Source: Asanoa siamensis | GTDB lineage: Bacteria > Actinomycetota > Actinomycetes > Mycobacteriales > Micromonosporaceae | Assembly (NCBI RefSeq): GCF_016862555.1 | Contig: NZ_BONE01000014.1 | Coordinates: 1 to 64,000, forward strand | DNA length: 64,000 nucleotides | Reading direction: 5' to 3' | Shown: in pieces, positions 7,802-62,530 of the stretch | Position numbering within the stretch: the stretch's first letter is position 1 | How the letters are laid out: each line of letters opens with the position of its first letter | Notes under the pieces: generated by a model | What the model was told of the DNA's origin: nothing | Databases searched by the model: none | What the model saw: the letters and a program-made list of their open reading frames with translations, nothing else | Translations under genes and position numbers: made by a program

Positions 7802-8844
7802 GCGGGACTTCTCCCGGCGATGACAGCACCTCCTCGGCCCGTCGTCGGTCATTCCGTGCCTGTCCCGGGTCCGCGGTGGGCACGACCGTCGCTCCCGCCG
7901 GACACCGCTCGCTCCGCTTCGCTGCCAGGTCCGCGGTTGGTTGCGCCGCCTTTCTGAGTGCGGTGCTGTTGGCCGGTTGCAGTGCAGACGCACCGTCACG
8001 CACGCCGGTGTTCCGCACCCCCGTGCCGTCGCCCAGTGTCGTATCGGTCGTGCCGCAGCCGAAGGTGACGGCGCCGGCGCGGGCGTTTGAGGTGGCGGTG
8101 CGGGACCTCGCGCTCAGCCGGGACGGGCGCGCGCTGCCGACCACCGTCTACTATCCGCAGGGTGCGGGCCGGTTCCCCGTCGTGCTGTTCAGTCACGGGC
8201 TGGGTGGGTCGCCGGCCGACTACGCGCCCTTGTTGCGGCGCTGGGCCGCCGCCGGGTTCGTGGTCGCGGCGCCCGCCTATCCGCACACCAGCGGCGACAG
8301 CGACGACTACGACGTGCTGGACGTGGTCAACCAGCCGGCCGACGCCTCGTACGTGATCGGGAAGGTGCTCGAACTCGACGGGCGCACCGGTGACCGGCTC
8401 TTCCGGCGGATCGCCACCGATCGGGTCGCCGCCGCCGGGCACTCGGCCGGTGGGATCACCACCGTCGGGATGTTCACGCTGGCCCGCGATCCCCGGCTCG
8501 ATGCCGGTGTCGTGCTGTCCGGCAACGCCCTCGGGGCCGGCACCGGGTTCCGCGGGACACCGGCGCCGATGCTGTTCGTGCACGGCGAGCGGGACGAAAC
8601 CGTCTCGTACGCGTCGGGAAAGGCCGCCTACGACGCCGTACCCTGGCCGAAGGCGCTCCTGTCCTTTCCCGAGGGTGACCACGGCACCACCCTGCTGCGG
8701 GACGGCGGCGCGTCCTTCCGGGTCCTGGCCGCGACCACGACGGAGTTCCTGCGGTTCACGCTCTACGGCGATCCCGCGGTGAAGCCGCGGATCACGGCGG
8801 CGGCCGCCCGCGACGACGTCGCCACCCTCGACGACCGGCTCTGA
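7798..8844 (+). CDS. Lipoprotein alpha/beta hydrolase, paralogue of the preceding gene
   Basis: Closely parallels the upstream esterase: LPTTVYYPQG, VVLFSHGLGGSPADY, VNQPADA, nucleophile elbow GHSAGGITTV, FVHGERDETVSY and a late GDHGTT. Instead of a cleavable secretory signal it has a lipobox (LLAGC, Cys near codon 61 from the ATG at 7798), so the mature enzyme should be anchored to the outer face of the membrane. The N-terminus is odd: the stretch before the lipobox is encoded by a copy of a dispersed repeat (7862-7941). The ATG at 7798 overlaps the previous stop; a GTG at 7876, inside the repeat, would give a more normal signal peptide of about 35 residues. Confidence 0.85.
   Translation: MSGTSPGDDSTSSARRRSFRACPGSAVGTTVAPAGHRSLRFAARSAVGCAAFLSAVLLAGCSADAPSRTPVFRTPVPSPSVVSVVPQPKVTAPARAFEVAVRDLALSRDGRALPTTVYYPQGAGRFPVVLFSHGLGGSPADYAPLLRRWAAAGFVVAAPAYPHTSGDSDDYDVLDVVNQPADASYVIGKVLELDGRTGDRLFRRIATDRVAAAGHSAGGITTVGMFTLARDPRLDAGVVLSGNALGAGTGFRGTPAPMLFVHGERDETVSYASGKAAYDAVPWPKALLSFPEGDHGTTLLRDGGASFRVLAATTTEFLRFTLYGDPAVKPRITAAAARDDVATLDDRL
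7862..7941 (+). repeat. Dispersed hairpin repeat, copy A
   Basis: An ~80-bp element reading from CCGGGTCCG through GACCGTCGCTCCCGCCGGA to CAGGTCCGCGGTTGG. Close relatives lie at 14226-14306, 62454-62530 and, on the opposite strand, in a tandem array at 27438-27838. This copy begins about 60 bases after the stop of the upstream esterase and is unusual because it is translated as part of the next gene's N-terminus. Confidence 0.8.
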
Positions 8845-8852
8845 CGCACACC

Positions 8853-8888
8853 GACGCCGCGGCGGGGACAGTGCCCCGCCGCGGCGTC
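8853..8888. terminator. Bidirectional terminator-type hairpin between convergent genes
   Basis: Two perfect 15-bp arms, GACGCCGCGGCGGGG (8853-8867) and CCCCGCCGCGGCGTC (8874-8888), with a 6-base loop. It fills the 49-base gap between the lipoprotein esterase and the convergent beta-helix gene. It lacks a clear T-run, as is common for terminators in this group. Confidence 0.75.
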
Positions 8889-8893
8889 GCGCG

Positions 8894-10288
8894 TCACTTG
8901 ACCGGCTTGCGGTTGTCGGCGAACAGGTTGGTGCTGTTCTGCCAGCTCACCCCGGTCTGCGTGGGCCGCGCGATCACGCCGTAGCGGAAGTCGCGGCCGA
9001 ACAGGTTGTCGCGGAACACGATGCCGGAACCGTTGAGGTCGTCCCGCACACCGATGGAGTAGTTGCCGCCGTTGCAGAAGTTCTGCTCGAACAACAGGTT
9101 GGTGACGCTCGGCCCGGTGGTCGAACCGATCATGATGCAGGCGTTGAACGGGTCCTTCGTGGTCGGGTTGTAGGCCTCGATCGTGTTGTGCCGGACCACG
9201 ATGTTGGAGCCGGCGGTGGTCTGCATCGCGTCGTTGTGCGAGCCGGACGCCCGGGTCAGGTGGTGGATCCACGAGTCGATGACCTGGCTGTTGGTGCCGA
9301 GCCGCGGGCCGTCGATCGTGTTGAAGATCTCCACCTTCTTGAGCGTGTAGCCGCCGCAGCACACCGTCGCCGAGTTCTTGCCCTGGCCGTCGATCGTCAC
9401 GTTCTCGACGAGCAGGTTGGCGTTGGCGTCACTCACCTTGATCGAGTAGTTGCTGCCGCAGCTGATCTTCGAGTTGCGGATGATCACGTTCTTGGCGGTG
9501 ACCGTCACGCAGCCCTTGATGTCGAGGCCGCTGACGACCTGGCCCGCCTTGGACAGCGTGAGCCCGCCCGAGGCCTTGAGCGCCGTGCCGTCGGGCACGC
9601 CCGTGTTGCTCGGCCCGGGGAACGAGCTCGGGATGCCCGGACCCTGTCCACCGCCCGCGGGCGGTGCCTCGACCGGCTTCGTCGGTTTCGGGTCCGGCTT
9701 CGCGGTCGCGGTCGGGGTGGGCGTCGGCTTGGCGGTGGGCGTCGGCGCGGTGGTCGGGGCCGGCTGCGTCGGTGCGTCGCCGCCACCGGGCACGGCCACG
9801 CCGCCGTCGACGTTGACCTTCTGCCCGTTCCACGTGGAGTCGATGATCGTCGCCGGCGCGGCGTCCGAGTACATGAAGCCGTTGCGGCAGCCGTGCAGTG
9901 CGACGCGCACGGCGGTGTAGTTGCCGAATACGACCCCGTTGGTCTTGCTTTCCTGACAGAAGATCTGCGTGTCCTCGATCCGCGTGCCGTCGAACCCTTC
10001 GAACACGCGAACCGAGTGATAACCCCCGTATCGAATGGTGCTGTTCCGGATGGTTACGTTGTCAGCCTTTACGTACAGGTACCCGTTGATGGTCTGCCCG
10101 TCGATCACGGTGCCGGGCTTGGTCACGGTGACCGACCCGGACTTGGCGACCGCCACCCCGACGCCCGCGGCGCCGAGCCCGAGCACGGTCAACGCCACCA
10201 GCAGCGCACGTCCGGGCCGTCGGAAGCTGAACCTCCTCCCGGTGCCGTGCGGTGCTCGTCGGGTGCCTTTGCGGGCTGCCGAAAACAT
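8894..10288 (-). CDS. Secreted two-part right-handed beta-helix protein with Pro/Thr linker
   Basis: A 464-residue exported protein. The ATG at 10288 follows a clear AAGGAG ten bases upstream. A basic N-terminus and hydrophobic segment (residues ~28-48) act as signal peptide or anchor. The body contains repeated short strands typical of parallel beta-helix (pectate-lyase/right-handed helix) proteins, such as VTIRNSTIRYGG and VIIRNSKISCGS. The two beta-helix segments look like duplicates (each begins K-x-G-x-V-x-x-G...N-V-x-I-R-N-S) and are separated by a ~45-residue Pro/Thr/Lys linker (residues ~180-230). Many cysteines suggest disulfides. A carbohydrate-binding or polysaccharide-degrading role is inferred from the fold; no catalytic residues can be assigned. 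Confidence 0.8.
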   Translation of the reverse strand: MFSAARKGTRRAPHGTGRRFSFRRPGRALLVALTVLGLGAAGVGVAVAKSGSVTVTKPGTVIDGQTINGYLYVKADNVTIRNSTIRYGGYHSVRVFEGFDGTRIEDTQIFCQESKTNGVVFGNYTAVRVALHGCRNGFMYSDAAPATIIDSTWNGQKVNVDGGVAVPGGGDAPTQPAPTTAPTPTAKPTPTPTATAKPDPKPTKPVEAPPAGGGQGPGIPSSFPGPSNTGVPDGTALKASGGLTLSKAGQVVSGLDIKGCVTVTAKNVIIRNSKISCGSNYSIKVSDANANLLVENVTIDGQGKNSATVCCGGYTLKKVEIFNTIDGPRLGTNSQVIDSWIHHLTRASGSHNDAMQTTAGSNIVVRHNTIEAYNPTTKDPFNACIMIGSTTGPSVTNLLFEQNFCNGGNYSIGVRDDLNGSGIVFRDNLFGRDFRYGVIARPTQTGVSWQNSTNLFADNRKPVK

Positions 10289-10606
10289 CGAGATCTGACT
10301 CCTTCGAAAAGCTTTCCGTGGGTGCCACCGCGGAACGGGAGCGACTTTACCGGGCACGGGAGAACGCGCAGACGGACAGAAAATCCGTTGTGGATCTGGC
10401 CTTTAGCGATCCTTAAGAGCGGCTGTGCGGACCCTTACATGCGGGATTTCGGTTCGCTGATAACCAGCATTTGTCCGATTTGAACTTTCCTAAAGGTCCG
10501 GTTTCTCGCCAACCCGAGATTGGGGCATCCCGTAGCCCGGAAGAGTGATCCATTTGCCCAGCTCGCGCCCCCTGGCGCGGCCGCCCGTACGCGAGAATGT
10601 CCGGCT

Positions 10607-11560: not shown

Positions 11561-11611
11561 CGGGCACCTGCGAACGGTGGGCAACAACCACCACCAGGTT
11601 GTCGCCACGGC

Positions 11612-12031: not shown

Positions 12032-12074
12032 CGGTTGCGGACTCTACCGGGTTGTAAGGAAACCTGCCGACGGC

Positions 12075-12108
12075 ACCGGCCGGCACCCACAGCGGGGCGC
12101 CGGCCGGT
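12075..12108 (-). terminator. GC-rich hairpin after sodN
   Basis: Arms ACCGGCCGGC (12075-12084) and GCCGGCCGGT (12099-12108) with additional ACCC/GGGG pairing inside. It lies 19 bases past the sodN stop in the sense of sodN transcription. Read on the minus strand it is followed by a weak TTTCC stretch. Confidence 0.65.
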
Positions 12109-12126
12109 CACAGGTGCGAGAACCGC

Positions 12127-12531: not shown

Positions 12532-12617
12532 CTGGACTCCTCCAAAGAAAGCTTACGATGATCCTCGCTGTGGACATTACCCTCGGCGCTCCACCGAAAC
12601 ATCGCGGAGGAACGTTC

Positions 12618-12941: not shown

Positions 12942-13040
12942 CGGGCAACCCCCGCTGTGCTTCGCCGGTCACCGCTGACCTCGCGTCGAGCCGGCACCTC
13001 TCTGCCGGCCGACCTTCGACGCGATTATGGAGTACTGCAC

Positions 13041-14216
13041 ATGTCCGCAGAGGATCCGGTTTTCCAACTGCACCGCGGCGGCAAGATGGCGGTCACCTCG
13101 ACCGTCCCACTGACCAGCCGCGACGACCTCTCGCTGGCCTACACACCGGGCGTCGCCCAGGTGTGCGAGGCGATCGCGGCCGATCCCACGCTGGTCGACG
13201 ACTACACCTGGGTGTCGCACACGGTGGCCGTGGTCACCGACGGCTCCGCCGTCCTCGGCCTCGGCAACATCGGCCCGCGCGCCGCGATGCCGGTCATGGA
13301 GGGCAAAGCCGTGCTGTTCAAGCAGTTCGGCGGTGTCGACGCCGTGCCGATCTGCCTCGACACACAGGACATCGACGGCATCATCGACACGGTGACGGCG
13401 CTCGCGCCGTCGTTCGGCGGCATCAACCTCGAGGACATCAGCGCACCGCGCTGCTTCGAGATCGAGCGCCGGCTCGACGAGGCGTTGCCGATCCCCGTGT
13501 TCCACGACGACCAGCACGGCACCGCGATCGTCGTGCTCGCCGCGCTGCGCAACGCGGCGTCCCTGCTCGAACGCAAGCTGACCGACCTGCGCGTGGTGGT
13601 CAGCGGCGCCGGCGCGGCCGGCATCGCGGTCACCAAGATGCTCGTCGCGGGCGGCGTCAACCCGGCCGAGGTGCTGCTCGTCGACTCGCGCGGCATCCTG
13701 CGCTCGGACCGTCCCGACCTGGCCGCGCCCGCCGCGGTCGCCAAGGCGGAGATGGCCGCGCTGACCAACCCGCACCGCCGCGACGGCGGCATCGCCGAGG
13801 CGCTCTCGGGCGCCGACGTGCTCATCGGCGTGTCCGGCGGCGAGATCCCCGAGTCGGCGGTGGCCACGATGGCCTCGGGCGCGATCGTCTTCGCCCTCGC
13901 CAACCCGACACCCGAGGTGCACCCCGAGATCGCGGCGCGGCACGCGGCCCTGGTGGCCACCGGCCGCAGCGATTTCCCCAACCAGATCAACAACGTGCTG
14001 GCGTTCCCGGGCATCTTCCGCGGCGCGCTGGAGGCCCGGGCCACCCGCATCACCGAGGGCATGAAGGTGGCGGCGGCCGACGCGATCGCGAACGTCGTCG
14101 CCGACAGCCTGAGCCCCGAGGCGTTCGTCCCGTCGCCGCTCGACCCGCGCGTCGCACCGGCGGTCGCCACCGCGGTCGCCGAAGCCGCACACCGCGACGG
14201 CGTCGCCCGGGTCTGA
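13041..14216 (+). CDS. Malic enzyme (oxaloacetate-decarboxylating malate dehydrogenase)
   Basis: 391 residues from the ATG at 13041 ([18 protein letters not shown]). Converts malate to pyruvate and CO2 with reduction of NAD(P). Visible motifs are [12 protein letters not shown], the malate/metal site [12 protein letters not shown] and the Rossmann loop [25 protein letters not shown] and FPNQINNVL are late conserved blocks. Short bacterial malic enzymes of this length lack the phosphotransacetylase-like extension. Cofactor choice (NAD or NADP) cannot be told by eye. A dispersed repeat begins about ten bases after its stop. Confidence 0.95.
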
Positions 14217-14225
14217 GAGATTTTT

Positions 14226-14306
14226 CCCGGGTCCGCCGGGGGCACGACCGTCGCTCCCGCCGGACACCGCTCCGCTTCGCTGCGCTGCCAGGTCCGCGGT
14301 TGGCAC
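14226..14306 (+). repeat. Dispersed hairpin repeat, copy B
   Basis: Reads CCGGGTCCGCCGGGGGCACGA at its start and ends CAGGTCCGCGGTTGG, like copy A. It begins ten bases after the malic enzyme stop, in the same orientation relative to that gene as copies A and C have to theirs. The inner part GGG-C-ACGACCGTCGCTCCC folds into a near-perfect stem. Confidence 0.8.
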
Positions 14307-14392
14307 CACCAACCACGGACCTGGTGCCGTTCTCGCTCTGCTCTGCTTCCATGGGCGCGGCGCCGCGGCCGCCCAGCGGCTAGATTCCACAC

Positions 14393-15343
14393 ATGCGTGC
14401 TGCCTTCGCGACCAAGTTCGATGACGCCAACCCGTTGTCCGCGCTCGCCGTCGGTGAGATGCCCGAACCCGAGCAGCGCGACGGCTGGGCCACCGTCGAG
14501 GTGCGGGCCAGTTCGCTCAACCACCACGACCTCTGGTCGCTGCGCGGCGTCGGGCTGCGCGAGCAGCAGCTACCGATGATCCTGGGCTGTGACGCCGCCG
14601 GCATCGCGCCGGGTGGCGAGGAGGTCGTCGTCTATCCGGTCATCACGACCCCGAGCGACCCGCGGGGCTACTCGCTCCTGTCCGAGCACTTCCCGGGGAC
14701 CTTCGCGCAACGCGTCGCCGTACCCGTGGAGAACCTGGTCCCGAAGCCGGCCGACCTGTCCTGGGCCGACGTCGCCTGCCTGCCGACGGCGTGGCTGACC
14801 GCCTACCGGATGCTGACCACCAAGGGTCGGGTCGACGAGACCGACGCGGTGCTGATCCAGGGTGCCGGCGGCGGCGTCGCCACCGCGGCCGCGCTGATCG
14901 CCGTCGCCATGGACAAGCGGGTCTACGTCACGAGCCGCGACGCCGACAAGCGCGACCGGATCAGCGCGCGCGGCGCGACGGCCCTCGAGCCGGGCGCGCG
15001 GCTGCCGGAACGGGTCGGCGTGGTGATCGAGACGGTCGGCGAGGCGACGTTCGAGCACTCGATGAAGGCCAGCGCCCCCGGCGCGCGCATCGTCGTGTCC
15101 GGCGCGACCTCGGGCCACCTACCGACATTCGACCTGCGCCGGGTGTACGCGATGCAACTCGAGATCCTCGGCAGCTCCATGGGCACCCCCGGCGAACTCG
15201 CCGCGCTGCTCGCGTTCTGCGCCGACAAGGCCGTCCGCCCGATCGTCGACGAGGTGATCGGCTTCTCCGAGGTCGAGCGCGCCTTCGGCCGCCTCCACGA
15301 GGGCGACGTGTTCGGCAAGATCGTGCTGGACCACACCCGCTAA
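14393..15343 (+). CDS. Quinone oxidoreductase / zinc-less MDR-family NAD(P)H dehydrogenase
   Basis: 316 residues of the medium-chain dehydrogenase/reductase family. The N-terminal GroES-like domain has SSLNHHDLWSLRG and GCDAAGIAPGGEEV; the Rossmann domain has VLIQGAGGGVATAAALIAVA. The structural-zinc cysteine cluster is absent, fitting a quinone-oxidoreductase-like rather than zinc alcohol dehydrogenase role. The conserved end LHEGDVFGKIVLDH matches the family. Substrate unknown. It has its own spacer upstream and is convergent with a small membrane-protein gene. Confidence 0.85.
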   Translation: MRAAFATKFDDANPLSALAVGEMPEPEQRDGWATVEVRASSLNHHDLWSLRGVGLREQQLPMILGCDAAGIAPGGEEVVVYPVITTPSDPRGYSLLSEHFPGTFAQRVAVPVENLVPKPADLSWADVACLPTAWLTAYRMLTTKGRVDETDAVLIQGAGGGVATAAALIAVAMDKRVYVTSRDADKRDRISARGATALEPGARLPERVGVVIETVGEATFEHSMKASAPGARIVVSGATSGHLPTFDLRRVYAMQLEILGSSMGTPGELAALLAFCADKAVRPIVDEVIGFSEVERAFGRLHEGDVFGKIVLDHTR

Positions 15344-15352
15344 ACGCGGGCC

Positions 15353-17466: not shown

Positions 17467-17485
17467 TCAAGAGCACCAACCGCAA

Positions 17486-17953: not shown

Positions 17954-18009
17954 GGCCGCAAGCTATCCGCCCAGCCCCGCCAAACGGAGCAATCACTCCA
18001 AAGTGGGCT

Positions 18010-18099
18010 GTGCCAGCTACCGATGCCTGGACTGTCAGTCGGCATGGAGAAGCAGTGCCGGCTACCGATGCCTGGACTATCAGTCGGCATGGAGAATCC
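18010..18099. repeat. Two tandem 45-bp repeats
   Basis: Units at 18010-18054 and 18055-18099 differ at few positions. Each contains GCTACCGATGCCTGGACT and TCAGTCGGCATGGAGA, with an internal palindrome around GACTGTCAGTC (GACTATCAGTC in the second). They lie in a 483-base gap (17954-18436) with no gene. Confidence 0.85.
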
Positions 18100-18344
18100 A
18101 GGCCGACGGTGGTCCCGCACGCGGCGGCAAGCCCGGAAACCCCGGCCAACGTTGGACCGTCACGTGCCGGCACGCCCTGAAACCCAAGCCCACGGTGGTC
18201 CCGCACGGAGAGTCGTTCTCCGCGCCCGGGTGGTCCGCGCCGCAGCCGACATGCTTTCGCACGTAGCCACATGCGAAAGCATGTGCGGCGCCGGCAAGCC
18301 ACGAAATCCAGGCCGACGGTGGACCCGCACGTGGCGGCGAGCCA
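18095..18344. repeat. Degenerate ~40-bp repeats, at least four copies
   Basis: A 39-bp sequence starting AATCCAGGCCGACGGTGG occurs at 18095 and again at 18305 with three differences. Weaker copies begin near 18137 and at 18181 (AACCCAAGCCCACGGTGGTC). Together with the 45-bp pair and the hairpin at 18250 they occupy most of the gap between the 17558 and 18437 genes. No open reading frame there looks coding. Confidence 0.75.
18250..18283. repeat. Perfect 12-bp inverted repeat
   Basis: Arms CATGCTTTCGCA (18250-18261) and TGCGAAAGCATG (18272-18283) with a ten-base loop. A diverged relative with the same layout lies at 62583-62622, so it is probably a dispersed palindromic element. Confidence 0.8.
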
Positions 18345-18436
18345 CGAGACCCGGCCGGTTCCCGTGCGATCCCGAACCAGGTTCGGGGGTCGGTGGCCTG
18401 ACGGCCTTCGGTATCCGGCCGATGTGCGGGTTTGGG

Positions 18437-27088: not shown

Positions 27089-27538
27089 GTGGAACGCATG
27101 GGGAAGGCGACCCTCTGGATCCTCGCTGCCCACGTGCTGGTGCTGATGCTGTGTTTCGTCGGCACGCTCAACTACCCGTCGGACGCGGAGTGCGCGTTGC
27201 CGGGCGCGTCGTGCGGGTTCGCGACGCGGGACATGCACCTCCTCCTGATCCTCATCCAGGCGGTGCCGATCCTGCTCGCCAGCTTCCTGTCCTGCGTGGC
27301 GGTAGCCGGCATCGTGATCAGCCTTCGCGCACGCCGGCGCTGGCGCGACGACGACGCGCGCGTGGGCTGGCTCGACGATGCCGCGCGAGGGCGCCGACCG
27401 GGCGACGACCTCGTGGCGCAGTGGGAGGCAGTGCTCGCTGACAAAAGAAAGTCGGCGACCGACGACGAACCCCGCAACGGAACGCAGCGAGCGGTGCCTG
27501 GCGGGGATGACGGTCGCGCCCCAGACGGACCCGAGTGA
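27089..27538 (+). CDS. Small two-helix membrane protein (paralogue 2) with repeat-encoded tail
   Basis: 149 residues from a GTG (MERMGKATLWILAAHVLVLM), aligned with the start of paralogue 1. Two helices (residues ~8-25 and ~50-78) flank an outer loop with cysteines (AECALPGASCGFATRD). The cytosolic tail is longer than in paralogue 1, and its last ~25 residues (TDDEPRNGTQRAVPGGDDG...) are encoded by the first unit of the dispersed repeat array. The original stop has apparently been lost by repeat insertion. Function unknown. Confidence 0.7.
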   Translation: MERMGKATLWILAAHVLVLMLCFVGTLNYPSDAECALPGASCGFATRDMHLLLILIQAVPILLASFLSCVAVAGIVISLRARRRWRDDDARVGWLDDAARGRRPGDDLVAQWEAVLADKRKSATDDEPRNGTQRAVPGGDDGRAPDGPE

Positions 27539-27838
27539 GCTGACAAAGAAGGCCGGTGACCGACGAGCCTCGCCGTAAACGCAGCGAGCGGTGCTTCGTG
27601 GGAGCGACAGTCGCGCCACCGACAGACCCGAGTAAAGCCGGCAAGAAAGCCGGTCACCGACAACGAGCCCGGCCGCGAAGCGCAGCGAGCGCTGCCCGGC
27701 GGGAACGACGGTCGTCCCCCAAAGACGCGAACTGACAAAAGAAAGATCCGTGACCCATGACGAGCCTGGCAGCGAAGCGCAGCGGGCGGTGCCTGGCGGG
27801 AGCGACGGTCGCGCCCCCGACGGACCCGAGCAAAAGGA
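27438..27838 (-). repeat. Tandem array of four ~97-bp dispersed-repeat units (copies D1-D4)
   Basis: The core, beginning AACGCAGCGAGCGGTGC or AAGCGCAGCGAGCG, recurs at 27481, 27578, 27678 and 27775. Each unit then has GGGAGCGACGGTCGCGCCCCC-like sequence and GACGGACCCGAG. The linkers (GACAAA-GAAAG...GACGAGCC) are conserved too, giving a 97-101 bp period. The array fills most of the 345-base gap between convergent genes, and relative to the MFS gene it has the same orientation as copies A-C have to theirs. Confidence 0.88.
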
Positions 27839-27866
27839 AATGCCCCCGGATCGCTCCAGGGGCATT
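27839..27866 (-). terminator. Terminator of the MFS transporter gene
   Basis: AATGCCCCCGGA (27839-27850) pairs with TCCAGGGGCATT (27855-27866), with one mismatch and a TCGC loop. In the sense of the MFS gene it is followed by TCCTTTTGC. It lies 18 bases beyond the MFS stop codon. Confidence 0.85.
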
Positions 27867-27883
27867 CCGACGCGCGCAAAACC

Positions 27884-29470
27884 TCAGTCGGCGATCGCTT
27901 CGGCCTTCGCCAGGGCGACCTCGGCCTCGTCGGCCGGGGTCTCGGGCTTGTCGCCGACGCCGCGCAGCGGGATCTCCTTGACGAACCACGCCAGCACCGG
28001 CACCAGGATGACGATCACGGCCGCCCAGACGAAGACGTAGGCGATCGAGTCCGCCAGGCCGCTCATCACCGCTTCGCGGATCTGGGTGGGTAGGTTCTGG
28101 AGCGCGGTCGGGTCGACGCCCGCGCCGCCGCCCTCGCCGGCGAGGGCGCTGCCCGCCGGGGAGTCAGCCAGACGGTGCACGAAGAGTGCGCCGAAGAGGG
28201 CGATGCCGATCGAGCCGCCGATGGAGCGAAAGAACGTCGCCGCGCCGCTGCCCGCGCCGAGGTCCTTCTGCTCGACGCTGTTCTGCGCGATCAGCATCGA
28301 GGTCTGCATCAGGAAGCCCATGCCCACGCCGAGGACGACCATGTAGAGCGACAGGACCAGCTTCGTGGTCCCCGCGTTGATCGTGGAGAGCAGGACCATG
28401 CCGGCCAGCAGGGCCACGCCGCCGAGGATCGGGAAGATCCGGTAGCGGCCGGTCTTCGTGATGACCCGGCCGGCGATCACCGAGATGACCAGCATGCCGA
28501 ACATCAGCGGGAGGAGCAGCAGGCCGCTGTTGGTCGCCGAGGCGCCCTGCACCGTCTGCTGGAACAGCGGCAGGAAGTTCATCGCGCCGAACATCGCGAA
28601 GCCGAGCAGGAAGCCGACCGCGGAGATCAGGGCGAAGTTGCGGTTGGCGAACAGGTGCAGCGGCAGGATCGGCTCCGGCGCGCGGCGCTCGACGAAGCCG
28701 AACACCACCAGCGAGACCACGGTCAGCGCGGCGAGGCCGAGGATCTGCGGCGAGGTCCAGTCGTACTCGTTGCCGCCCCAGGTGGTGATCAGCACGAGCG
28801 CGGTGATGCCGACCGAGAGCAGTGCGGCGCCGAGGTAGTCGATCCGGTGCTCGGTGCGGTAGCGCGGCAGGTGCATCCGGGTCGCCAGGATCAGCAGGGC
28901 CACGCCGCCCAGCGGCAGGTTGACGTAGAACGCCCAGCGCCACGACAGGTGGTCGGTGATGAAGCCGCCGACCAGCGGGCCCGCGACCATCGCGATCGCC
29001 ATGATGCCCGCGATCAGGCCCTGGTAGCGGCCGCGCTCGCGGGGCGGCACCAGGTCACCGATGATCGCCATGACGCCGACCATCAGGCCGCCCGCGCCGA
29101 GGCCCTGCACGGCCCGGAAGGCGATGAGCTCGATCATGCCGTCGTTCGGGCCGCCGAGCATGGCGGAGCCCGCCATTCCGCACAGCGCCGAGCCGATCAG
29201 GAAGATAATGATCGACGTCAGGAAGATGGACTTGCGGCCGTAGAGGTCGCCGAGCTTGCCCCAGATCGGCGTCGACACGGTCGTGCCGAGCACGTAGGCG
29301 GTGACCACCCAGGTGAAGTGGTTGAGCCCACCGAACTCGCCGACGATGCGCGGCAGCGCCGTGCTGACGATCATGTTGTCGAGCATTGCCAGCATCATCG
29401 CGATCATCAGACCGGCGAGGATGACGCGGATCTTCTGCGGAGTCAGCGCCCGCATCGCGTCAGTGGTCAA
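27884..29470 (-). CDS. MFS multidrug efflux transporter, DHA2 (EmrB/QacA) family
   Basis: 528 residues with about 14 transmembrane helices. Motif A-like GKLGDLYGRKSIFL follows helix 2, LDNMIVSTALPRI is the DHA2 signature in helix 1, and GLGAGGLMVGVMAIIGDLVPPRERGRYQG is the motif B/C region. It should export drugs or metabolites by proton antiport. A TTG at 29470 is the likely start (MTTDAMRALTPQ), with a GGGGGG stretch upstream; the ATG five codons in is possible. Divergent from a TetR regulator across a palindromic operator region, so it is probably repressed by it. Confidence 0.92.
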   Translation of the reverse strand: MTTDAMRALTPQKIRVILAGLMIAMMLAMLDNMIVSTALPRIVGEFGGLNHFTWVVTAYVLGTTVSTPIWGKLGDLYGRKSIFLTSIIIFLIGSALCGMAGSAMLGGPNDGMIELIAFRAVQGLGAGGLMVGVMAIIGDLVPPRERGRYQGLIAGIMAIAMVAGPLVGGFITDHLSWRWAFYVNLPLGGVALLILATRMHLPRYRTEHRIDYLGAALLSVGITALVLITTWGGNEYDWTSPQILGLAALTVVSLVVFGFVERRAPEPILPLHLFANRNFALISAVGFLLGFAMFGAMNFLPLFQQTVQGASATNSGLLLLPLMFGMLVISVIAGRVITKTGRYRIFPILGGVALLAGMVLLSTINAGTTKLVLSLYMVVLGVGMGFLMQTSMLIAQNSVEQKDLGAGSGAATFFRSIGGSIGIALFGALFVHRLADSPAGSALAGEGGGAGVDPTALQNLPTQIREAVMSGLADSIAYVFVWAAVIVILVPVLAWFVKEIPLRGVGDKPETPADEAEVALAKAEAIAD

Positions 29471-41391: not shown

Positions 41392-41396
41392 GGCTT

Positions 41397-47616: not shown

Positions 47617-48327
47617 ATGACCGACGACGGGCACCATCGGCCTGAGGCGGTCGCGCCCGCCACGGGGTCGCTGCTGCTGGCCGAGACGTTCTCACGGGGT
47701 CAGGTGACCGATCTCCGGCACTCGTTCGCGGGCTGCGCCGAGGCGGCGGGCCTCCGCGACCAGCGCCTCGACGACTTCGTGCTCGCGGTCAACGAACTGA
47801 TCACCAACGCGGTACGCCACGGCGGCGGCGCCGGGCAACTACGCCTCTGGCGCGCGGGGGCGACGCTCGTCTGCGAGGTGTCGGACGGCGGCGCCGGCAT
47901 CGGCGCGGAACGCCTGGCCAACCACGAACGCCCGGCCCCGGACACGGCGGGCGGCTGGGGCCTCTGGCTGGCCGACCAGCTCAGCGACAGCATGGCGGTA
48001 GCCACGGGCCCGGCGGGCACGACGGTCCGGATCACCACGTCCCTGGACGAGGCGGACGGCCGCGTCGGCACCCTGGCCGCCGTCGCCAGCCGCGACGACA
48101 CCACCGCCGGCCTGGCCGGCGGGGCCGGTGGCTTGGGCGCCGCGAGCAGCGGACTCGGCGGTCGAGGCGGCGTGACGGGTGCATCCGGCGGCGACGGCGG
48201 TGCGGCCAGCGGCCTGGGCGCCGGGGATGAAGGCCTGGCCGGTGCGGCCGGCGGACTGGGCGGTGCGGGTGACGGCCTGGGCGGTCGGGTCGCGGACCCG
48301 GCGGGGGCGCGGGAGCGCCTGGAGTGA
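47617..48327 (+). CDS. RsbW-like anti-sigma serine kinase with Gly-rich C-terminal tail
   Basis: 236 residues from the ATG at 47617. The HATPase core has a normal N-box (DFVLAVNELITNAVRHGG), SDGGAGIG and WGLWLADQLSD, so ATP binding is expected. After ~155 residues it ends in a ~75-residue low-complexity tail of repeated GGLGA-, GGAGDGLGG-type units, not found in ordinary RsbW. The gene overlaps the following STAS gene by four bases (GTGA), the standard arrangement of an anti-sigma kinase and its antagonist, and is divergent from the phosphatase gene. Confidence 0.85.
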   Translation: MTDDGHHRPEAVAPATGSLLLAETFSRGQVTDLRHSFAGCAEAAGLRDQRLDDFVLAVNELITNAVRHGGGAGQLRLWRAGATLVCEVSDGGAGIGAERLANHERPAPDTAGGWGLWLADQLSDSMAVATGPAGTTVRITTSLDEADGRVGTLAAVASRDDTTAGLAGGAGGLGAASSGLGGRGGVTGASGGDGGAASGLGAGDEGLAGAAGGLGGAGDGLGGRVADPAGARERLE

Positions 48328-50095: not shown

Positions 50096-50974
50096 ATGGC
50101 GCTCGACTCGACCCAACTGGCGACATTCGCCGCGGTGGTCGACGAAGGCAGCTTCGAAGCCGCGGCCCGCGTCCTGCACGTGACCCCGTCCGCGGTCAGC
50201 CAACGGATCAAGGCACTGGAGCAGGCGGTCGGCCAGGTCGTGCTGCGCCGGGCCAAGCCGTGCCGGGCGACCCCCGCCGGCCGGCCGTTGCTGCGGTTGG
50301 CGGGCCAGATAGCGGTCCTGGAACGCGAGGCGCTGGCGGCCGCGGGCCAACGCGGCGCCACCTGGTCCCGGGCGGCGATCGTGGTCAACGCGGACTCGCT
50401 GGCCACCTGGTTCCTGCCGGCGCTGGTCACGGCCGGGGACCGGATCCTCTTCGACGTACGCGAGGACGACCAGGACCACACCGCCGAGTTGCTGCGCGAC
50501 GGCGCGGTGATGGCCGCGGTGACCGCACAGCGCGAGGCGGTGCAGGGTTGCCGAGCGGAACGCCTGGGCGCGATGCGCTACGTGGCGACGGCGGCCCCGT
50601 CGGTGGCGGCCCGCTGGTTCCCGGCGGGTGGCACTCCCGAGGAGTTCGCGGTGGCACCGATGCTGGTGCTGGACCGCAAGGACCGGTTGCAGCACCGTTT
50701 CCTGCGCCTGCTCAGCACCCGCCCACCGGAGCCACCGACGCACTACGTGCCATCGGCCTGGGGCTTCACGGAAGCGATCCGCCTGGGGGTGGGCTGGGGC
50801 CTGATGCCGGAACAGATAGCCACGACAGATTTGGGAGCGGGCCGAGTGATCCGCTTGGCGGGAAGCCAGCAGTTGGACATCCCGCTCTACTGGCAACACT
50901 GGAAACTGAACTCCACAGTGCTCAAGGCACTAACGACGGCAGTCCGCACCGCCGCGGCGGCGGCCCTCCGCTGA
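50096..50974 (+). CDS. lysG: LysG/ArgP-type LysR-family regulator
   Basis: 292 residues. The LysR helix-turn-helix is LATFAAVVDEGSFEAAARVLHVTPSAVSQRIKALEQAVGQVVLRR, followed by a periplasmic-binding-like effector domain. Homologues activate lysE in response to lysine, arginine or histidine, and the divergent position fits exactly. The 71-base spacer is the most AT-rich stretch of this region (AAGGTTTTTCATGC, TTTAGAATTTCTC) and should contain both promoters and the LysG site. Confidence 0.92.
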   Translation: MALDSTQLATFAAVVDEGSFEAAARVLHVTPSAVSQRIKALEQAVGQVVLRRAKPCRATPAGRPLLRLAGQIAVLEREALAAAGQRGATWSRAAIVVNADSLATWFLPALVTAGDRILFDVREDDQDHTAELLRDGAVMAAVTAQREAVQGCRAERLGAMRYVATAAPSVAARWFPAGGTPEEFAVAPMLVLDRKDRLQHRFLRLLSTRPPEPPTHYVPSAWGFTEAIRLGVGWGLMPEQIATTDLGAGRVIRLAGSQQLDIPLYWQHWKLNSTVLKALTTAVRTAAAAALR

Positions 50975-51297
50975 ACGCCGAGAGAAACGAGGACTCGCCC
51001 GGGACGACCCTCAACCACCCGAACCGCCGGAACAAGGCGCACCGAAGCGCCGCCGCTGTCGGCGGACGAGGCGCGGGACCTACTCGCGCTGGCCAGTGAA
51101 CTCAGGCGCCAACTCGCCACCGACGTCGGCGCCACCGATCCGCCAAGGCTGCAGTTGGCACGGCCCGGTCCCACCGTGGCACCGCCACCTTCCGTCTCCG
51201 CTTAGCCGACCCGCGCGATCGGGTTTGGAGCGGTCGCCGCAGCCCGGTCCCGACGTGCCGCCACGCCCGTCCGTCGTCGCCTGGCCAGCCCGGGCGA
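50975..51297. other. Spacer without a convincing gene; possible decayed coding remnant
   Basis: This 323-base stretch between lysG and the FtsX-like gene has no credible start-to-stop gene. On the plus strand, 51057-51205 translates as SADEARDLLALASELRRQLA... and ends PPPSVSA-stop, which looks protein-like, but no start codon precedes it and the frame changes upstream. It may be the tail of a lost gene. No repeat or terminator is evident. Confidence 0.35.
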
Positions 51298-54200
51298 TCA
51301 GGTCGCCGAGCGGTCGCCGCGGCCCGTGACGGCCAGGACCGCCAGCACCACGGCGCCCGTGCCCCAGACGATGGTCAAGGTGAGTGGGTCCGGCAGCGTC
51401 GGGAGCGGAACAGGCCACGCGTCGTCCGGGAAGACCGGCGTCGCCGGGCCCGCGACGGCCCACGTGCCGACCGCCAGCAACGGGCCGACGATGACGCCCA
51501 CCAAGGTCGGCCAGAGACGTAGGCGCCGGGCCGCCCCGCGGAGGGTGCGGGCGCTGACGCCCTGCGCCCGAAGTACGCGGCCGCGGGCCGCGCGGTTCGT
51601 GCGCTCCACCGCGGCTACCAGGCCCAGGCCGAACAGCACCAGCAGCACCGCGAAGGCCGCCGTGACCAGTTCGTAGCGGGCCGCCAGCGCCGCGCCCGAG
51701 GCGTCGGCGTAGTCGGCGTGGTCCGCCGCCACCGTCTGGTCGAGGACCGTCAGGCCCGCGGCCGTCAGGCGGGCCACCGCGTCATCCGGCGCGTCCGGGC
51801 CCAGCCAGACCTGCGGGAAGCCGCCCTCGCCCATCGGGGCGGCGCGGTTCAGGTATTCGAGGTCTACCAGCAGGCCCGACGAGCCGACGCCGGGGAGGGT
51901 GGGGCGGGAACCGATCGCCGTGGCCGGCGCCGGCTCCGTGCGGCCCGGTGACACCACCGCCCAGCCCGTGTCGGTCTCCCGTGCGGTGGCGGAGTCGGTG
52001 CGCAGCACCGGCACCACCTCGGGCACGTCGGCGACGACCAGCCGTTGGGGCGCGTCGGTCGCGGTCATCTCGACCGTGACCGCGCCGCCGCCGGTCGAGA
52101 CCTTCGGTGCGGTGACGATGACGCCACCCTGGATCAGACCGCGCCAGCGATTGCTGTCGCTGAGCACCTCCGGGCCGGCGACCACCTGGTCGGGACCGGT
52201 CTGGCTGATCTCGTGGACGGTGACCCGCATCGTCGAGGGCACCGGTTCGACCTCGATCGCGATCAGCCGGCAGCCGGCCTCGCACGCGGGCAAATCGTTG
52301 GCGTAACTGTGCCGGCCCAGGTGGACGTCGCCGAGCGCCACCGGGCGTTCGCTGCCGCCGGGCGGCTGCACGATGGCCCGTAGCTCCGGCTCCGCCCCCG
52401 GCCGGAAGGCGCCGCGGACCGGGTCGAAGGTGGGCATCTCGACCGTCGCGTCGATCTGGATGCGGCGGCCGGTGATCGGCGCCGAGGGCGGCACCGGCGG
52501 ACGCAGCCCGCGCACCAGGTCGGCGGGCACCGAGTCGGGTGGCGCGACCGCCACGAGCCGTTCGCTGTCGACCGCCATGGTCGGCGGGCCGGACCCGGTC
52601 GAGGGGATCGCGACCACGGCCATCGCCCAGCGGCCCTCCGGGTCGGCCTCGCGCACCGCGGTCCGTAGGTTGCCCCCGCTGATCAGGTTGACGTTGAGGA
52701 GCTGGGCGGCGCCGAGCTCGACGCCGGCGCGCTGCGCCCGGGCCGCGTCGCCCGCGTCGACCGCCAGCACCGTGAAGCAGAGCAGGGAGGCGCCGAGCAC
52801 GGCCAGCGTCACGGCCCGCCGGGGCGCCGCCCGGCGGGACAGCTCGATCCCGGCCAGCGCGGCGGAGAGCCGGCCGGCGGACAGCGCGCGCAGGCCGGCC
52901 CGGCGGGCGGCGGGCGCGAGCAGACGGCTGGCGAGGAGGGCTCCGCCGAGGATCACCAGCGCGGGCGCCAGGACCGCGATGCCCCCGCGCGGCGGCCCGG
53001 TCGCGTTGCGCGCTTCCAGCACCGCGAACGCGGCCAGCGCGACCACCATCGCGTCGACGGTCAGCGAGCGCCAGGCCCCACCCTGCCGGAGCACCTTGCG
53101 GAGCAGGTCGATCGCCCGGCCGGTGACCACGGTGCGGTAGGCGAGGGCCACGGCCAGCACCGCGCCGGCCATCGCGACCAGCGCGTAGCGGCGCAGGCCG
53201 GAATCCAGGCTGAGGTCGACGTCGCCGCCCGGCACCGCGTACGCGCCGACGAACTGGCCGGCGAGCAGGCCCAGCGGCGCACCCGCGAGCACCGCGACCA
53301 CGTCGGGCCCGGCCGCCAGGGTCCAGCGGTAGGGCACCGGTAGGCCGCGCACCGCCACCTGGCCGAGCTCTGTGCGCCGGGCCTCGGCGCCGGCCGCGGC
53401 GGCCAGGAAGATGACGAACCAGCAGAGCGGGACGACCGTGAGCGCCAGCCACGGCACGAGCGAGCGGACCGCCGCCCTGCTCTGCTCGATCCGCTCGACC
53501 AGGTCGTCGGTGCCCGCGACGAGGGTGGTGTCCCGCTCGTTGGCCTCGGCCGTCAGCCGCTCGATCTTCTCCGGGTAGTGGTCGACCCAGTCGACCGTGA
53601 GTTGCGCCGGGTCGGCGATGAGGTCGTAGGTCTGCGTCTCCGGGACCAGCCCGGTGAGCAGCCGGCCGGTGGCCCGGGACCCGAAGATCGGCTCGACGCC
53701 GACCCGGTTGATCGTGCTGGCCGCGCGCACGTGCGGATCCACGAACAGACCCGGCGGGTACGGCGAGACGGCTCCCCAGTAGGGGTGGGTCGGGTCGATC
53801 GGGTGGTAGACGCCGACGATCGAGAGCGACACCGTCTGACCCATGCGGACGAGCTGGGCGGCGCCCTCCACGGTCTGGAACTCCGCCTGCCGGAACGAGA
53901 TCGCGTCACCGACGCCGGCCTCGAGCTGGGCGGCGCTCTCCTTGCCGATCATCACCTCGGCCCGGCCGGTGGGGCAGCGCCCGGCGTCGAGCGTGACGTG
54001 CGCGCACACACCGTCGCGATAGGACAGCTGCCACGAGAGGTCCATCGTCTTCGGCGCGACGTCGATGGCGGAGCCGAAGACGAGGTCGAACCCGGGCGTG
54101 GCGAACGCCGGGCCGCCGAGCCGCTCGAAGGCGTCGCCGATCTCCCGCGGGTCCTTGTTGCTGGTGAAGCTCAGCACCCGCTCGTGGGGTGCCGCGGCCG

Positions 54201-59069: not shown

Positions 59070-59157
59070 GCCTGGACTCCTCGCTGCTGGGTTACTGGAT
59101 CGTCAACTACACCGCCCGTACCGACGGGGTGTCAACTGCTCGTGATCTACTGAATCG

Positions 59158-59988
59158 GTGGAGCTGCTGCACCAGGGGAAAGTCCGCGACGTCTACGCCG
59201 ACGGCGACGAGCTGGTGCTGGTCGCCTCCGACCGGCTGTCCATCTACGACGTCATCCTGCCGACGCCGATTCCCGACAAGGGCGCCATCCTGACCCGGCT
59301 CTCGCTGTGGTGGTTCGCGCAGCTCGCCGGCATCGTGCCCAACCACGTGATCTCGGCGACCGACGTGCCGGCCGAGTTCGCCGGGCGGGCGATCCGGGTC
59401 CGGCGGCTCGACATGCTGCCGGTCGAGTGCGTCGCGCGCGGCTACCTGACCGGCGGCGGCAAGCGGGAGTACGACGAGACCGGCACCGTCTCCGGCATCC
59501 CGCTCGCGCCCGGCCTGGTCGAGGCGCAGCGGCTGCCCGAGCCCATCTTCACCCCGTCGTCCAAGGCGCCGAAGGGCGAGCACGACGAGCCGATCTCGTT
59601 CGACCAGGTGATCGCCGAGGTCGGTCGGGAGACCGCGGAGGCGATCCGGGACATCACGATGGCCGTCTACCGGCGTGGCGCGGAGCTGGCCGCCGAGCGG
59701 GGCGTGCTGATCGCCGACACGAAGATCGAGCTGGGCCGGGCGACGGACGGCACGCTGGTGCTGGGCGACGAGGTGCTCACCCCGGACTCGTCACGGTTCT
59801 GGCCGGCCGACGACTACGAGCCGGGGCGCACGCAGTTCTCCTTCGACAAGCAGTTCGTCCGCGACTGGGCGACGGACGCGGGCTGGGACAAGAAGTCGCC
59901 GCCGCCACCGGTGCCGGACGACGTCGTCGCCGTGACCCGCGCCCGCTATATCGACATTTATGAGCGTTTGACAGGCGAAGCCTGGTAA
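59158..59988 (+). CDS. purC: Phosphoribosylaminoimidazole-succinocarboxamide synthase
   Basis: 276 residues; purine-pathway step joining CAIR and aspartate with [31 protein letters not shown] is the N-terminal signature, [20 protein letters not shown] and [28 protein letters not shown] are later ones, and FDKQFVRDW ends the conserved core. The GTG at 59158 is the start. A usual-length, single-domain enzyme. Convergent with glpK with five bases between stops. Confidence 0.97.
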
Positions 59989-59993
59989 AAGGC

Positions 59994-61460
59994 TCAAACC
60001 CAGTCGAGCGTACGCGTGACCGCCTTGCGCCATTGGCTCCACTCGCGTTCGCGGCGAGCCTTGTCGACGAGCGGCTGCCATTCCGCGTCGGGCCGCCAAT
60101 GCGCGCGCAGCGCGTCGAGGTCCGGCCAGAATCCCACCGCGAGCCCGGCCGCGTAGGCCGCGCCGAGACAGGTGGTCTCGGTGACCCGGGGCCGGACGAC
60201 CGGCAGGTCGAGCACGTCGGACAGCGTCTGCATGAGCAGGTTGTTGACGGTCATCCCGCCGTCGACCCGCAGCCGGCGCAAGGCCACGTCGGTGTCGGCG
60301 TCCATCGCCTCGACCACCTCGCGGGTCTGCCAGGCGCTCGCCTCCAGCGCCGCGCGGGCCAGGTGGGCCCGGGTGATGTAGCCGGTCAGCCCGGCGATCA
60401 CGCCCCGCGCGTCGCCGCGCCAGTGCGGCGCGAACAGTCCGGAGAACGCGGGCACGATGTAGCAGCCGCCGTTGTCGTCGACGGACGCGGCCAGCGCCTC
60501 GATCTCGTCGGCGCTGCCGATCAGGCCGAGGTTGTCACGCAGCCACTGGACCAGCGCGCCGGTCACGGCGATGGCACCTTCCAGGGCGTACGCGGGACGC
60601 TCGGAACCGACCTGGTAACCGACCGTGGTGAGCAGCCCGTGCCGGGACACCACCGGGGTCGCACCGGTGTTGACCAGCAGGAAGCTGCCCGTACCGTAGG
60701 TGCACTTGCCCTCGCCCGGCTGGAAGCACGCCTGGCCGAACAGCGCCGCCTGCTGGTCGCCGAGGGCGCCGGCCACGGGGACGCCGTCCATCCGGCCGCC
60801 GCGGGCCGGGCCGTACACCTCGGACGACGGTCTGATCTCGGGCAGCATCGCCGCCGGGATGCGCAGCGCGTCGAGCAGGTCCGGGCTCCAGTCGAGCGTA
60901 CGCAGGTCCATCAGCAGCGTCCGGCTGGCGTTGGTCACGTCGGTGACGTGCCGGCCGGTCAGGTTCCAGATCAACCAGCTGTCGACGGTGCCGAACAGCA
61001 CCTCGCCACGCTCGGCCCGCCCGCGCAGGCCGTCGACGTTGTCCAGCAGCCAGCGCAGCTTGGGCCCGGCGAAGTAGGTGGCCAACGGCAGGCCGGTGAT
61101 GCGGCGGATGTCGGCCTCGCGGTCGGCGAGCGTACGCAGGACGGGTTCGGTCCGGGTGTCCTGCCACACGATCGCGTGATGCACCGGCTCGCCGGTGGCC
61201 CGGTCCCAGACGACGGTGGTCTCGCGCTGGTTGGTGATCCCGAGCGCGGCGATGTCGTAGCCGGCGGTCGCCTCCTCGACCACGGCCCGCACGTTGGCCC
61301 AGATCTCGGCGGCGTCGTGCTCGACCCAGCCCGGCTTGGGATAGCGCTGGCGGTGCTCGCGCCGGGCGACGGCGGCGATCCCACCGTCACCGTCGAAGAC
61401 GATGCACCGGGAGGAGGTGGTGCCTTGATCGATCGCGGCGACGTAGGGCATGCGGGCCAT
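59994..61460 (-). CDS. glpK: Glycerol kinase
   Basis: 488 residues; phosphorylates glycerol with ATP. ALDQGTTSS-type start ([17 protein letters not shown]), [32 protein letters not shown] and [19 protein letters not shown] are the FGGY-family signatures. Start either MARMPYV at 61460 or the ATG three codons on. No glpF or glpD neighbours are seen. It is divergent from the PRPP synthetase gene, with a 38-base spacer. Confidence 0.95.
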
Positions 61461-61498
61461 TGTGCCGGGCGGATCGTCGCCCGAATAGGATCGGTTTC

Positions 61499-62434
61499 GT
61501 GCGCGACATCGCGGTATTCAGCGGTAGTGCCCATCCGGAGCTGGCCGCCGACATCTGTGCCCACCTCGGCGTCCCACTGCTCCCGACGCGGGTCTCCCGG
61601 TTCGCCAACGACTGCCTCGAGGTGCAGCTGCAGGCCAACTGCCGGGAACGCGACGTCTTCCTGATCCAGCCGATCGTCGCGCCGACCCAGGAGAACCTGG
61701 TCGAGCTGCTCTTCATGATCGACGCGGCCCGCGGTGCGTCGGCGGGCCGGATCACGGTGGTGCTGCCCCATTTCGCGTACGCCCGCTCGGACAAGAAGGA
61801 CGCGCCCCGCATCTCGATCGGCGCCCGCCTGGTCGCCGACCTCCTGGTGTCGGCGGGCGCCCACCGGGTGCTGGCGATGACGCTGCACTCGCCGCAGGTG
61901 CACGGCTTCTTCAGCGTGCCGGTCGACCACCTGCACGCGCTGCGCGAGCTGGCGGCGCACTTCCGCGGCGAGGACCTGAGCGAGACGGTCGTGGTCTCCC
62001 CGGACCTGGGCAACGCGAAGGAGGCGGCGGCGTTCGCCCGCATGCTGGGCACGCCGGTGGCCGCGGGCGCGAAGCAGCGTTTTCATGACAAGGTCCGCAT
62101 CAGCGCGGTGATCGGCGACGTCGCCGACCGCGACGTGATCGTCCTGGACGACGAGATCGCCAAGGGCAGCACGGTGATCGAGCTGGTCGACCACCTCCAC
62201 CAGCTCAAGGCCCGCTCGATCCGCCTGGTCTGCACACACGGCCTCTTCGCGGACGACGCCCTGGACAGGCTGTCGGCACTGGACGGCGTCACGGAGATCA
62301 TCTGCACGAACACGGTGCCGATCCCGATCGAAAAACGCGTGCCGCAGCTGACGATCCTGTCGGTGGCGCCGGCCCTGGCGGAAGCGATGCGCCGCATCCA
62401 CAACGGCGAGTCGGTCAGCGCGCTGTTCGCCTAG
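61499..62434 (+). CDS. prs: Ribose-phosphate pyrophosphokinase with variant PRPP loop
   Basis: 311 residues from the GTG at 61499. Makes PRPP from ribose 5-phosphate and [37 protein letters not shown] (the ATP site) and [19 protein letters not shown] are recognisable. The PRPP-binding motif reads [17 protein letters not shown] where most enzymes have a TGGT-type loop, so this is probably a paralogue with altered regulation or kinetics. No other purine gene follows. A dispersed repeat begins 20 bases past the stop. Confidence 0.87.
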
Positions 62435-62453
62435 ACACGATCGAGGATCCGTT

Positions 62454-62530
62454 CCCGGGTCCGTCGGGGGCGCGACCGTCGCTCCCGCCGGACACCGCTC
62501 GCTCCGCGTCGCTGCCACGCGCGCGTCGGG
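62454..62530 (+). repeat. Dispersed hairpin repeat, copy C
   Basis: Starts CCCGGGTCCGTCGGGGGCGC and shares GACCGTCGCTCCCGCCGGACACCGCTCGCTCCG with copies A and B. It begins 20 bases after the prs stop in the same direction as that gene, and its far end (GTCACGGACC) matches the linker of array unit D4. Confidence 0.82.

Follow-up and report, generated by a model that had tools for sequence, protein, structure and literature searches.

A dispersed REP-like hairpin repeat behind genes of Asanoa siamensis, with a probable role at transcript 3′ ends

Why does the same short hairpin repeat stand in one orientation behind the stop codons of several genes? The question arises in a stretch of 64,000 nt from the actinomycete Asanoa siamensis (NZ_BONE01000014.1, positions 1 to 64,000; hereafter the window), which holds three single copies and an array of four units. 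A sequence-only reading had proposed a role in transcript termination or stabilisation, or insertion next to terminators, rather than random spread. The reading favoured here, with moderate confidence and from comparison of sequences, is that selection maintains the repeat as a dispersed cis-element at transcript 3′ ends, similar to repetitive extragenic palindromic (REP) elements, whose sequence would be read by a putative trans-acting factor. A role at 3′ ends as such appears probable, being favoured by the conservation of the repeat and by the wobble pairs of its sense strand.

A repeat family at gene ends

A search of the whole genome and its close relatives, which the sequence-only reading had called for, bears out a dispersed family. 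The 16-base core GACCGTCGCTCCCGCC occurs with at most one mismatch 104 times in the species' own assembly (G000, 8.78 Mb in 219 contigs; 48 forward, 56 reverse), and the reversed pattern used as a control gives 1 + 1. These are pattern counts, as the scored DNA and model searches give the best ~40 places per genome and were therefore not used for counting. Five congeners (G001 to G005) carry 23 to 53 exact copies each; with one mismatch allowed, G005 has 58. Among 55 other relatives the exact core is found in seven (eight copies in G028, two in G030 and one in each of five), and at least some of the single matches fall, by eye, in coding-like sequence. Exact copies are also unevenly distributed: 32/38 lie below 4.3 Mb of the 9.07 Mb of contig G003:C1, and 34/46 below 4.5 Mb of the 7.96 Mb of G005:C1.

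Two samples were drawn from this family. The placement sample consists of 46 strong copies, three of them units of the window array, from 1.70 Mb of the species' own genome (contigs C7, C10, C14, C18 and C48, picked for holding copies). The six-species set comprises 187 copies from the own genome and the five congeners, with 20 places taken by coordinates plus search loci for each of G001 to G004, and search loci for G005. Because the relatives' 3-kb loci were chosen by exact match to positions 21-36 of the repeat, conservation at these positions is not claimed from them. Genes were called with a simple codon-score caller, and orthologous copies and pairs are not mutually independent.

The expectation that neither orientation nor position would prove random across the genome survived in the placement sample. 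There, 34/46 copies follow a gene of their own strand (orientation: binomial p 1.5e-4), 27 of the 34 with a stop gap of at most 62 nt. Convergent genes enclose 21 copies, same-sense tandem genes 12 and divergent genes 3, while 9 copies are oriented against both neighbours and one stands at a contig end. From intergenic length, 8.7 convergent, 11.9 tandem, 11.9 against-both and 12.6 divergent placements are expected for 45 copies, and the convergent excess has a binomial p of 4.4e-5. Across the six species the upstream gene is on the same strand for 140/187 copies, opposite for 32 and not called for 15; the median stop gap is 21 nt (at most 40 nt in 94/140), and 5/187 copies lie inside a called gene. 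The gap is 15 nt or shorter in 46 of the 110 copies lying within 60 nt. The placement at 3′ ends that had been called constant is thus a bias, with 9/46 copies against both neighbours and 32/187 behind an opposite-strand gene.

Insertion next to terminators, the other explanation offered at the outset, fits a minority: 19/187 copies, the window array included, lie downstream of a T-tract hairpin as scored by a permissive automatic criterion, and most copies do not. T-tract terminators occur at 2/18 convergent gene ends with the element vs 19/214 without it, and at 1/12 tandem ends with it vs 42/501 without. On these equal frequencies, from small numbers, the element was rejected as a substitute for T-tract terminators. 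The position table of the 187 copies has no T enrichment behind the conserved module, and the U-tract of an intrinsic terminator is thus missing there.

The gene ends carrying the element have peculiarities of frame and stop codon. The stop-to-element gap is a multiple of three in 61/110 copies (gaps of at most 60 nt, six species), or in 40.9/72 when each ortholog group is counted once; where orthologous gaps differ, they do so by a multiple of three in 27/54 pairs (p 0.013). The linker is GATC-rich in 38/59 own copies vs 94/578 gene ends without the element, and in each of the three phase classes A is most frequent at the third-base phase set by the element itself. TAA stops close 42/110 element genes (12/35 in the own genome) vs 120/1340 in the background, making them about four times commoner. 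Stop read-through as the cause of the in-frame bias is unsupported, because in the frame of the gene linkers look about as coding as other gene ends do (coding score −0.42 vs −0.43) and the period follows the element.

Anatomy, fold and history of the unit

The unit begins sharply at positions −2 to 0. Its conserved part, module A, spans ~40 nt and is followed by a variable middle and then by a short module C, read by eye as GCCAGGTCCGCG. The middle consists of CGCTN-type pentamers, a GGGCC..GGCCC hairpin, or nothing. Within module A, positions 1, 3-6, 9, 10, 21-25, 28-36 and 38 hold a single base in 96-100% of the 187 copies, and positions 0, 7, 8, 11, 12, 14, 17, 19, 20, 39 and 40 vary. Positions 39-40 track species, with AC in 49/58 own copies and 11/25 in G002, and GG commonest in G001 (11/24), G003 (9/22), G004 (15/24) and G005 (17/32).

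Positions 2 and 37 are coupled. In the 185/187 copies that score at least 26 bits, C stands with G in 134 and T with A in 47; the remaining four break the rule as aligned, each has an indel, and reading by eye restores the rule. The 178 copies free of core indels, used for the identity and wobble analyses, hold C-G or T-A in 178/178 cases. One array unit near 27721, at 25.7 bits below the 26-bit cut, truly lacks the rule. In tests of 300 shuffles each, position 2 varies independently of every other column but 0 and 39. An interpretation of the 2-37 coupling as many independent compensations was withdrawn: given the rapid turnover of the variable interior positions, independence from those columns is no proof of repeated events at this pair.

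The conserved pairing joins CYCGGG..CG to CG..CCCG-CC-RG, where Y-R is C-G or T-A. RNAalifold, given 57 distinct copies out of 87 sequences, returned pairs 1-38, 2-37, 3-34, 4-33, 5-32, 6-31, 9-28 and 10-27 unprompted; pairs 11-25, 15-24, 16-23 and 18-21 were added to this helix by hand. In the extended helix 98.1% of cells are paired and the covariation score lies above 500/500 shuffles, and shifting the partner by 1-3 columns lowers pairing to 29-56%. The 'both-side change' and 'further pair types' measures do not exceed shuffles for the extended helix. Wobbles on the sense strand are G·U in 63 cases vs A·C in 7 (178 copies), and the five window units fold at −20.4 to −25.1 kcal/mol. On 162 copies of all variants alifold gives a poor consensus, and on the two loop variants separately it recovers the outer stem.

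The stem GGG-x-GCGA-CCG-TCGC-x-CCC, which the sequence-only reading had taken for the common fold, did not hold up, as 83.2% of its cells are paired, with no covariation. No Rfam family reaches its gathering score in the window, and 14150-14420 gave just two sub-threshold matches. A known RNA family was likewise rejected: 20 loci, selected since many of them follow a gene of the opposite strand, were scanned and yielded four tRNA matches and nothing else; at L037, the one locus worked through, the tRNA points away from the element.

Orthologous sites suggest a largely vertical history. Among 24 own sites that correspond by orthology to a relative's copy, 19 have a copy in the same orientation, two have a copy in the opposite orientation only, and three have none. 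In the window, the 14225 copy is found at the same place in all six species, the 7863 copy in the own genome and G002, and the 62453 copy in the own genome and G001; the array occurs in the own genome only, and the syntenic stretches of the congeners gave no sign of it in any of the five. Over 125 ortholog pairs module A is 90.5% identical, while the preceding 37 nt are 65% and the following stretch 60% identical, against a random baseline of 57.5% for unrelated upstream stretches. In 121 of these pairs (four were left out for a frame shift), positions 1, 3-6, 9, 10 and 38, which played no part in picking copies, have 0-4 changes each, and positions 0, 7, 8, 11, 12, 14, 19, 39 and 40 have 33-64 changes each. 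Such fixed positions need selection, or conversion that spares the variable ones; selection is the simpler explanation. Two ortholog pairs differ at 2-37, and their interiors also diverge strongly, as if the whole module had been replaced.

Beyond the genus, a covariance model of the repeat has matches (E ≤ 0.01) in 43/150 family genomes and 16/44 genera; genomes with one weak match may owe it to chance. Where a genus has several copies, its 3′ arm is largely retained and its 5′ arm differs. The 5′ arm is TCCCGGG in g29; ACTCGGG or GCTCGGG in g66, with the T-A form in 8/8 loci read; TCCCGGG, TCCCAGG or TCCCGGC in g61; GCGACGG in g24, with a 12-bp hairpin in 4/5 copies read; and ACCGCGGCG or ACCGCGACG in g31, with the end CCCGCGG. 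Single changes in the 3′ arm occur at loci L439, L447, L442, L423, L436, L397 and L404. Read by eye, 17/18 loci of g29, g66 and g61 obey the 2-37 rule, and the exception has a deletion. From these sequence comparisons a conserved 3′ strand across genera is established. A single hairpin across genera is not, because the 5′ arm of g31 mostly folds on itself, which rules out one fold in all genera. The upstream gene is on the same strand in 25/31 readable loci, opposite in five and absent in one (of 36 loci, five without a readable motif were left out). The g31 genomes G094 and G126 each have more than 20 places with identical scores against model positions 8-33, so that this genus may have a large and highly uniform repeat family to itself.

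Known systems and competing explanations

The closest likeness is to the REP elements and bacterial interspersed mosaic elements (BIMEs) of Escherichia coli, Pseudomonas and others, which are characterised by a GTAG head and a REP-associated tyrosine transposase (RAYT). Like these, the element is a short GC-rich imperfect palindrome (~40 nt) with about a hundred extragenic copies, lies downstream of genes, favours convergent and unidirectional over divergent neighbours, and is clustered in places. The GTAG head is not in the consensus of the 187 copies. A Y1 transposase (RAYT, PF01797) has no match in the own genome, which speaks against a RAYT-driven REP, and across six genomes of the genus there is one match in one genome, with a stop inside. 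In BIMEs the REPs alternate in orientation; the clusters seen here are mostly head-to-tail (the window, G005, G003 and G001), with inverted neighbours also found at 147065 and 147322 of own contig C7. A further difference from REP/BIME is that most tested sites are common to several species. The element is therefore REP-like in form and place, but not a member of a described REP family, since the tag and, in the own genome, the transposase are missing and the clusters seen are mostly head-to-tail.

The CGTC REPs of alpha-Proteobacteria have an unpaired CGTC end, a stem of 8-9 bp, a loop of 4-5 nt and a CCA tail (PMC3733652). As with the element, no dedicated transposase is known for them and they lie between unidirectional and convergent genes (PMC3733652). 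However, the CGTC of the element (positions 24-27) is inside the 3′ arm and largely paired (11-25, 10-27, 15-24), and stem and tail differ, which sets the element outside the CGTC REPs. Tagged REPs are described mainly from gamma- and alpha-Proteobacteria, with an RNA, DNA or parasite role left open, and the string 'actino' does not occur in the main text of that account (PMC3733652). For three Actinomycetota, RepRanger predicts 2,283 to 5,512 palindromes per genome (PMC12306157). These resemble the element as predicted palindromes of high-GC genomes; as described, they are tool predictions rather than one sequence family (PMC12306157). In Streptomyces clavuligerus, 353/1,427 transcript ends combine strong structure with few U residues (PMC8269248). 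The element is similar in placing a GC stem-loop behind a gene without a U-tract, although it is a fixed sequence and a dispersed consensus is not described for those ends (PMC8269248).

No match was found in plasmid, phage and viral collections (E ≤ 1e-3; in one search, one exact degenerate pattern), which speaks against carriage by such replicons. Integron attC sites are also imperfect hairpins in fixed orientation directly behind a stop codon, and end in AAC/GTT boxes. The element shares the oriented, imperfect hairpin behind a stop codon; unlike attC, its consensus has no AAC/GTT boxes (an integron integrase was not searched for). None of the titles and abstracts retrieved was recognised as describing this repeat family; the string GACCGTCGCTCC occurs once in each of two papers.

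As a selected cis-element, the unit would form a GC-rich imperfect hairpin in the mRNA, which would help to end transcription without a U-tract or shield the 3′ end from exonucleases, while a trans-acting factor, protein or RNA, would read the 3′ arm. New sites would appear now and then by some copying route and then be inherited vertically. Action at the RNA level is favoured because of the fixed orientation behind genes and the sense-strand wobbles (53/63 at one pair), and reading of the sequence because the 3′ arm is near-fixed; a factor is postulated because a plain terminator would need far less sequence conservation. Termination, 3′-end protection and ribosome effects at the stop are not separated by these data. 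Concerning the last, a REP paper of 2025 cites earlier work in which E. coli REPs closer than 16 nt to the stop were able to reduce translation (PMC12306157).

A non-autonomous mobile hairpin of the REP type, or of the miniature inverted-repeat transposable element (MITE) type, could settle behind genes as the least harmful place and have no present job. The variable presence of copies (7863 in two, 62453 in two and the array in one of six species), the unequal numbers in the own genome and G005, and the tandem clusters speak for it, as does the state of G001 and G004, which lack the 7863 copy and where the two flanking genes appear to overlap at ATGA. It is nevertheless considered unlikely, as 19/24 sites are common to a relative and nearly unchanged while their flanks diverge, fixed and free positions stand side by side, and neither a Y1 transposase in the own genome nor a match in the plasmid, phage and viral collections was found. 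The empty sites read revealed no target duplication, though with flanks this diverged one could have gone unnoticed, and the ends of module A offer only CY..RG as a candidate terminal inverted repeat.

An oriented double-stranded DNA site between transcription units, bound by gyrase, a nucleoid protein or a protein acting as a polymerase roadblock, would explain why the linear 3′ arm is near-invariant even where the fold differs (g31), why 2-37 is strictly C-G or T-A without wobble, and why convergent genes are enriched, as for REPs, some of which are gyrase targets (PMC3733652). Since in the species' own genus the 5′ arm goes with the 3′ arm, orientation is fixed behind the upstream gene and sense-strand wobbles are in excess, such a site appears quite unlikely. 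A plain intrinsic terminator without a U-tract, repeated by copying and not read in its sequence, is very unlikely. It would agree with hairpins of −20 to −25 kcal/mol behind stops in the window and with the U-poor structured ends of S. clavuligerus, yet it needs no fixed sequence, whereas positions 28-36 are 96-100% one base (partly from copy picking) and the 3′ strand recurs in other genera. The structured class in Streptomyces is also stronger, peaking at −32 kcal/mol at 30 °C (PMC8269248).

Several observations weigh against the selected, factor-read cis-element favoured here. Fold support leans on one pair, because 2-37 alone changes on both sides. Its two forms may represent classes that separated long ago, because the pair differs in 2/125 ortholog pairs and the whole module differs then. 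As many as 53/63 wobbles fall at a single pair, and T-G is never seen at 2-37, though an RNA helix would tolerate it. With fold z-scores of −0.15 to −1.77, the five window units do not stand out among sequences of such GC content. The species-specific bases at positions 39-40 could mean homogenisation among copies, not selection at each. To these are added the nine copies oriented against both neighbours, the self-folding 5′ arm of g31, and T-tract terminators that are neither replaced nor accompanied by the element.

A wider reading appears improbable: that, in a group of high-GC bacteria, the strand GACCGTCGCTCCCGC might be a family-wide, sequence-specific signal, read by a putative factor that would set or guard mRNA 3′ ends. 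The unit displaying it would have had its other arm rebuilt genus by genus, and the strand would be a bacterial counterpart of a consensus 3′-end signal. If this is true, the in-frame element and the TAA excess would mean that terminating ribosomes take part. Whatever its role, the repeat is a REP-like kind outside gamma- and alpha-Proteobacteria, with no Y1 transposase in the genome studied here, and its shared sites, with near-fixed beside free positions, offer natural material for site-by-site tests of function. As a setter of 3′ ends, it would provide a recognisable end signal for high-GC genomes, in which U-tracts are missing from many transcript ends.

Copies and neighbours in the window

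Direct reading, repeat search and the covariance model all place the single copies and the array where the sequence-only reading had seen them (Table 1). The model was itself built from copies that include these.

Table 1. The repeat and its neighbours in the window
Feature	Coordinates	Strand	Basis
Single copy, module A (positions 0-40)	7863..7903	+	covariance model 72.5 bits at 7862-7905; direct reading
Single copy, module A; longer unit to ~14300	14225..14265	+	covariance model 71.6 bits
Single copy, module A; longer unit to ~62540	62453..62493	+	covariance model 70.1 bits
Array of four diverged units, head-to-tail	27443..27832	-	repeat family D1
Terminator-like hairpin with T-rich tail, GGAATGCCCC..GGGGGCATTTCCTTTT, between MFS stop and array	27833..27870	-	fold −26.1 kcal/mol, z −2.74
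Alpha/beta-hydrolase-like gene upstream of 7863 copy	6905..7801	+	Pfam Chlorophyllase, PAF-AH_p_II barely over cut-off
Malic enzyme gene upstream of 14225 copy	12957..14216	+	Pfam malic, Malic_M
Ribose-phosphate pyrophosphokinase-like gene upstream of 62453 copy	61460..62434	+	Pfam Pribosyltran_N, 150.2 bits
MFS transporter gene upstream of array	27884..29470	-	Pfam MFS_1, 199.7 bits

The shared sequence claimed for all copies holds for the single ones. The 19-mer GACCGTCGCTCCCGCCGGA is exact in all three and in 0/4 array units, of which two have two mismatches and two more than three. With up to three mismatches it has six matches in the window, five of them in the single copies and the array, where shuffles expect 0.38. 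The array units are spaced 97, 101 and 97 nt apart. Three are matched by the covariance model, at 27789-27832 (67.8 bits), 27494-27537 (44.8 bits) and 27591-27634 (26.7 bits), and the fourth, at 27688-27721, was detected by nhmmer alone and is the unit that breaks the 2-37 rule. The distance of 10-60 bases after the stop was about right, with gaps of 61 nt for the 7863 copy, 8 nt for the 14225 copy, 18 nt for the 62453 copy, and 52 nt for the array unit adjoining the MFS gene. A weak model match at 48006-48048 (minus strand, 21 bits, E 0.0045) is far under the true copies and probably due to chance.

The 7863 copy, whose longer unit with variable middle and module C extends to ~7939, sits within an open frame (7798-8844) that reads through the repeat. 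Because the frame spans the copy, the true gene start decides whether the copy is intergenic. The frame encodes an alpha/beta-hydrolase-like protein with a lipobox-like LLAGC, and the same frame is open, by eye, across the repeat in G002.

Other short tandem repeats occupy 18007-18352, with two 45-nt copies (93%) and four copies of ~43-48 nt (families D18 and D4). The segment of ~51.4-62.4 kb is inverted relative to G001, G003, G004 and G005 and colinear with G002, with breakpoints at ~50,972-51,386 and 62,434-64,906; the right breakpoint lies within the gap that holds the 62453 copy.

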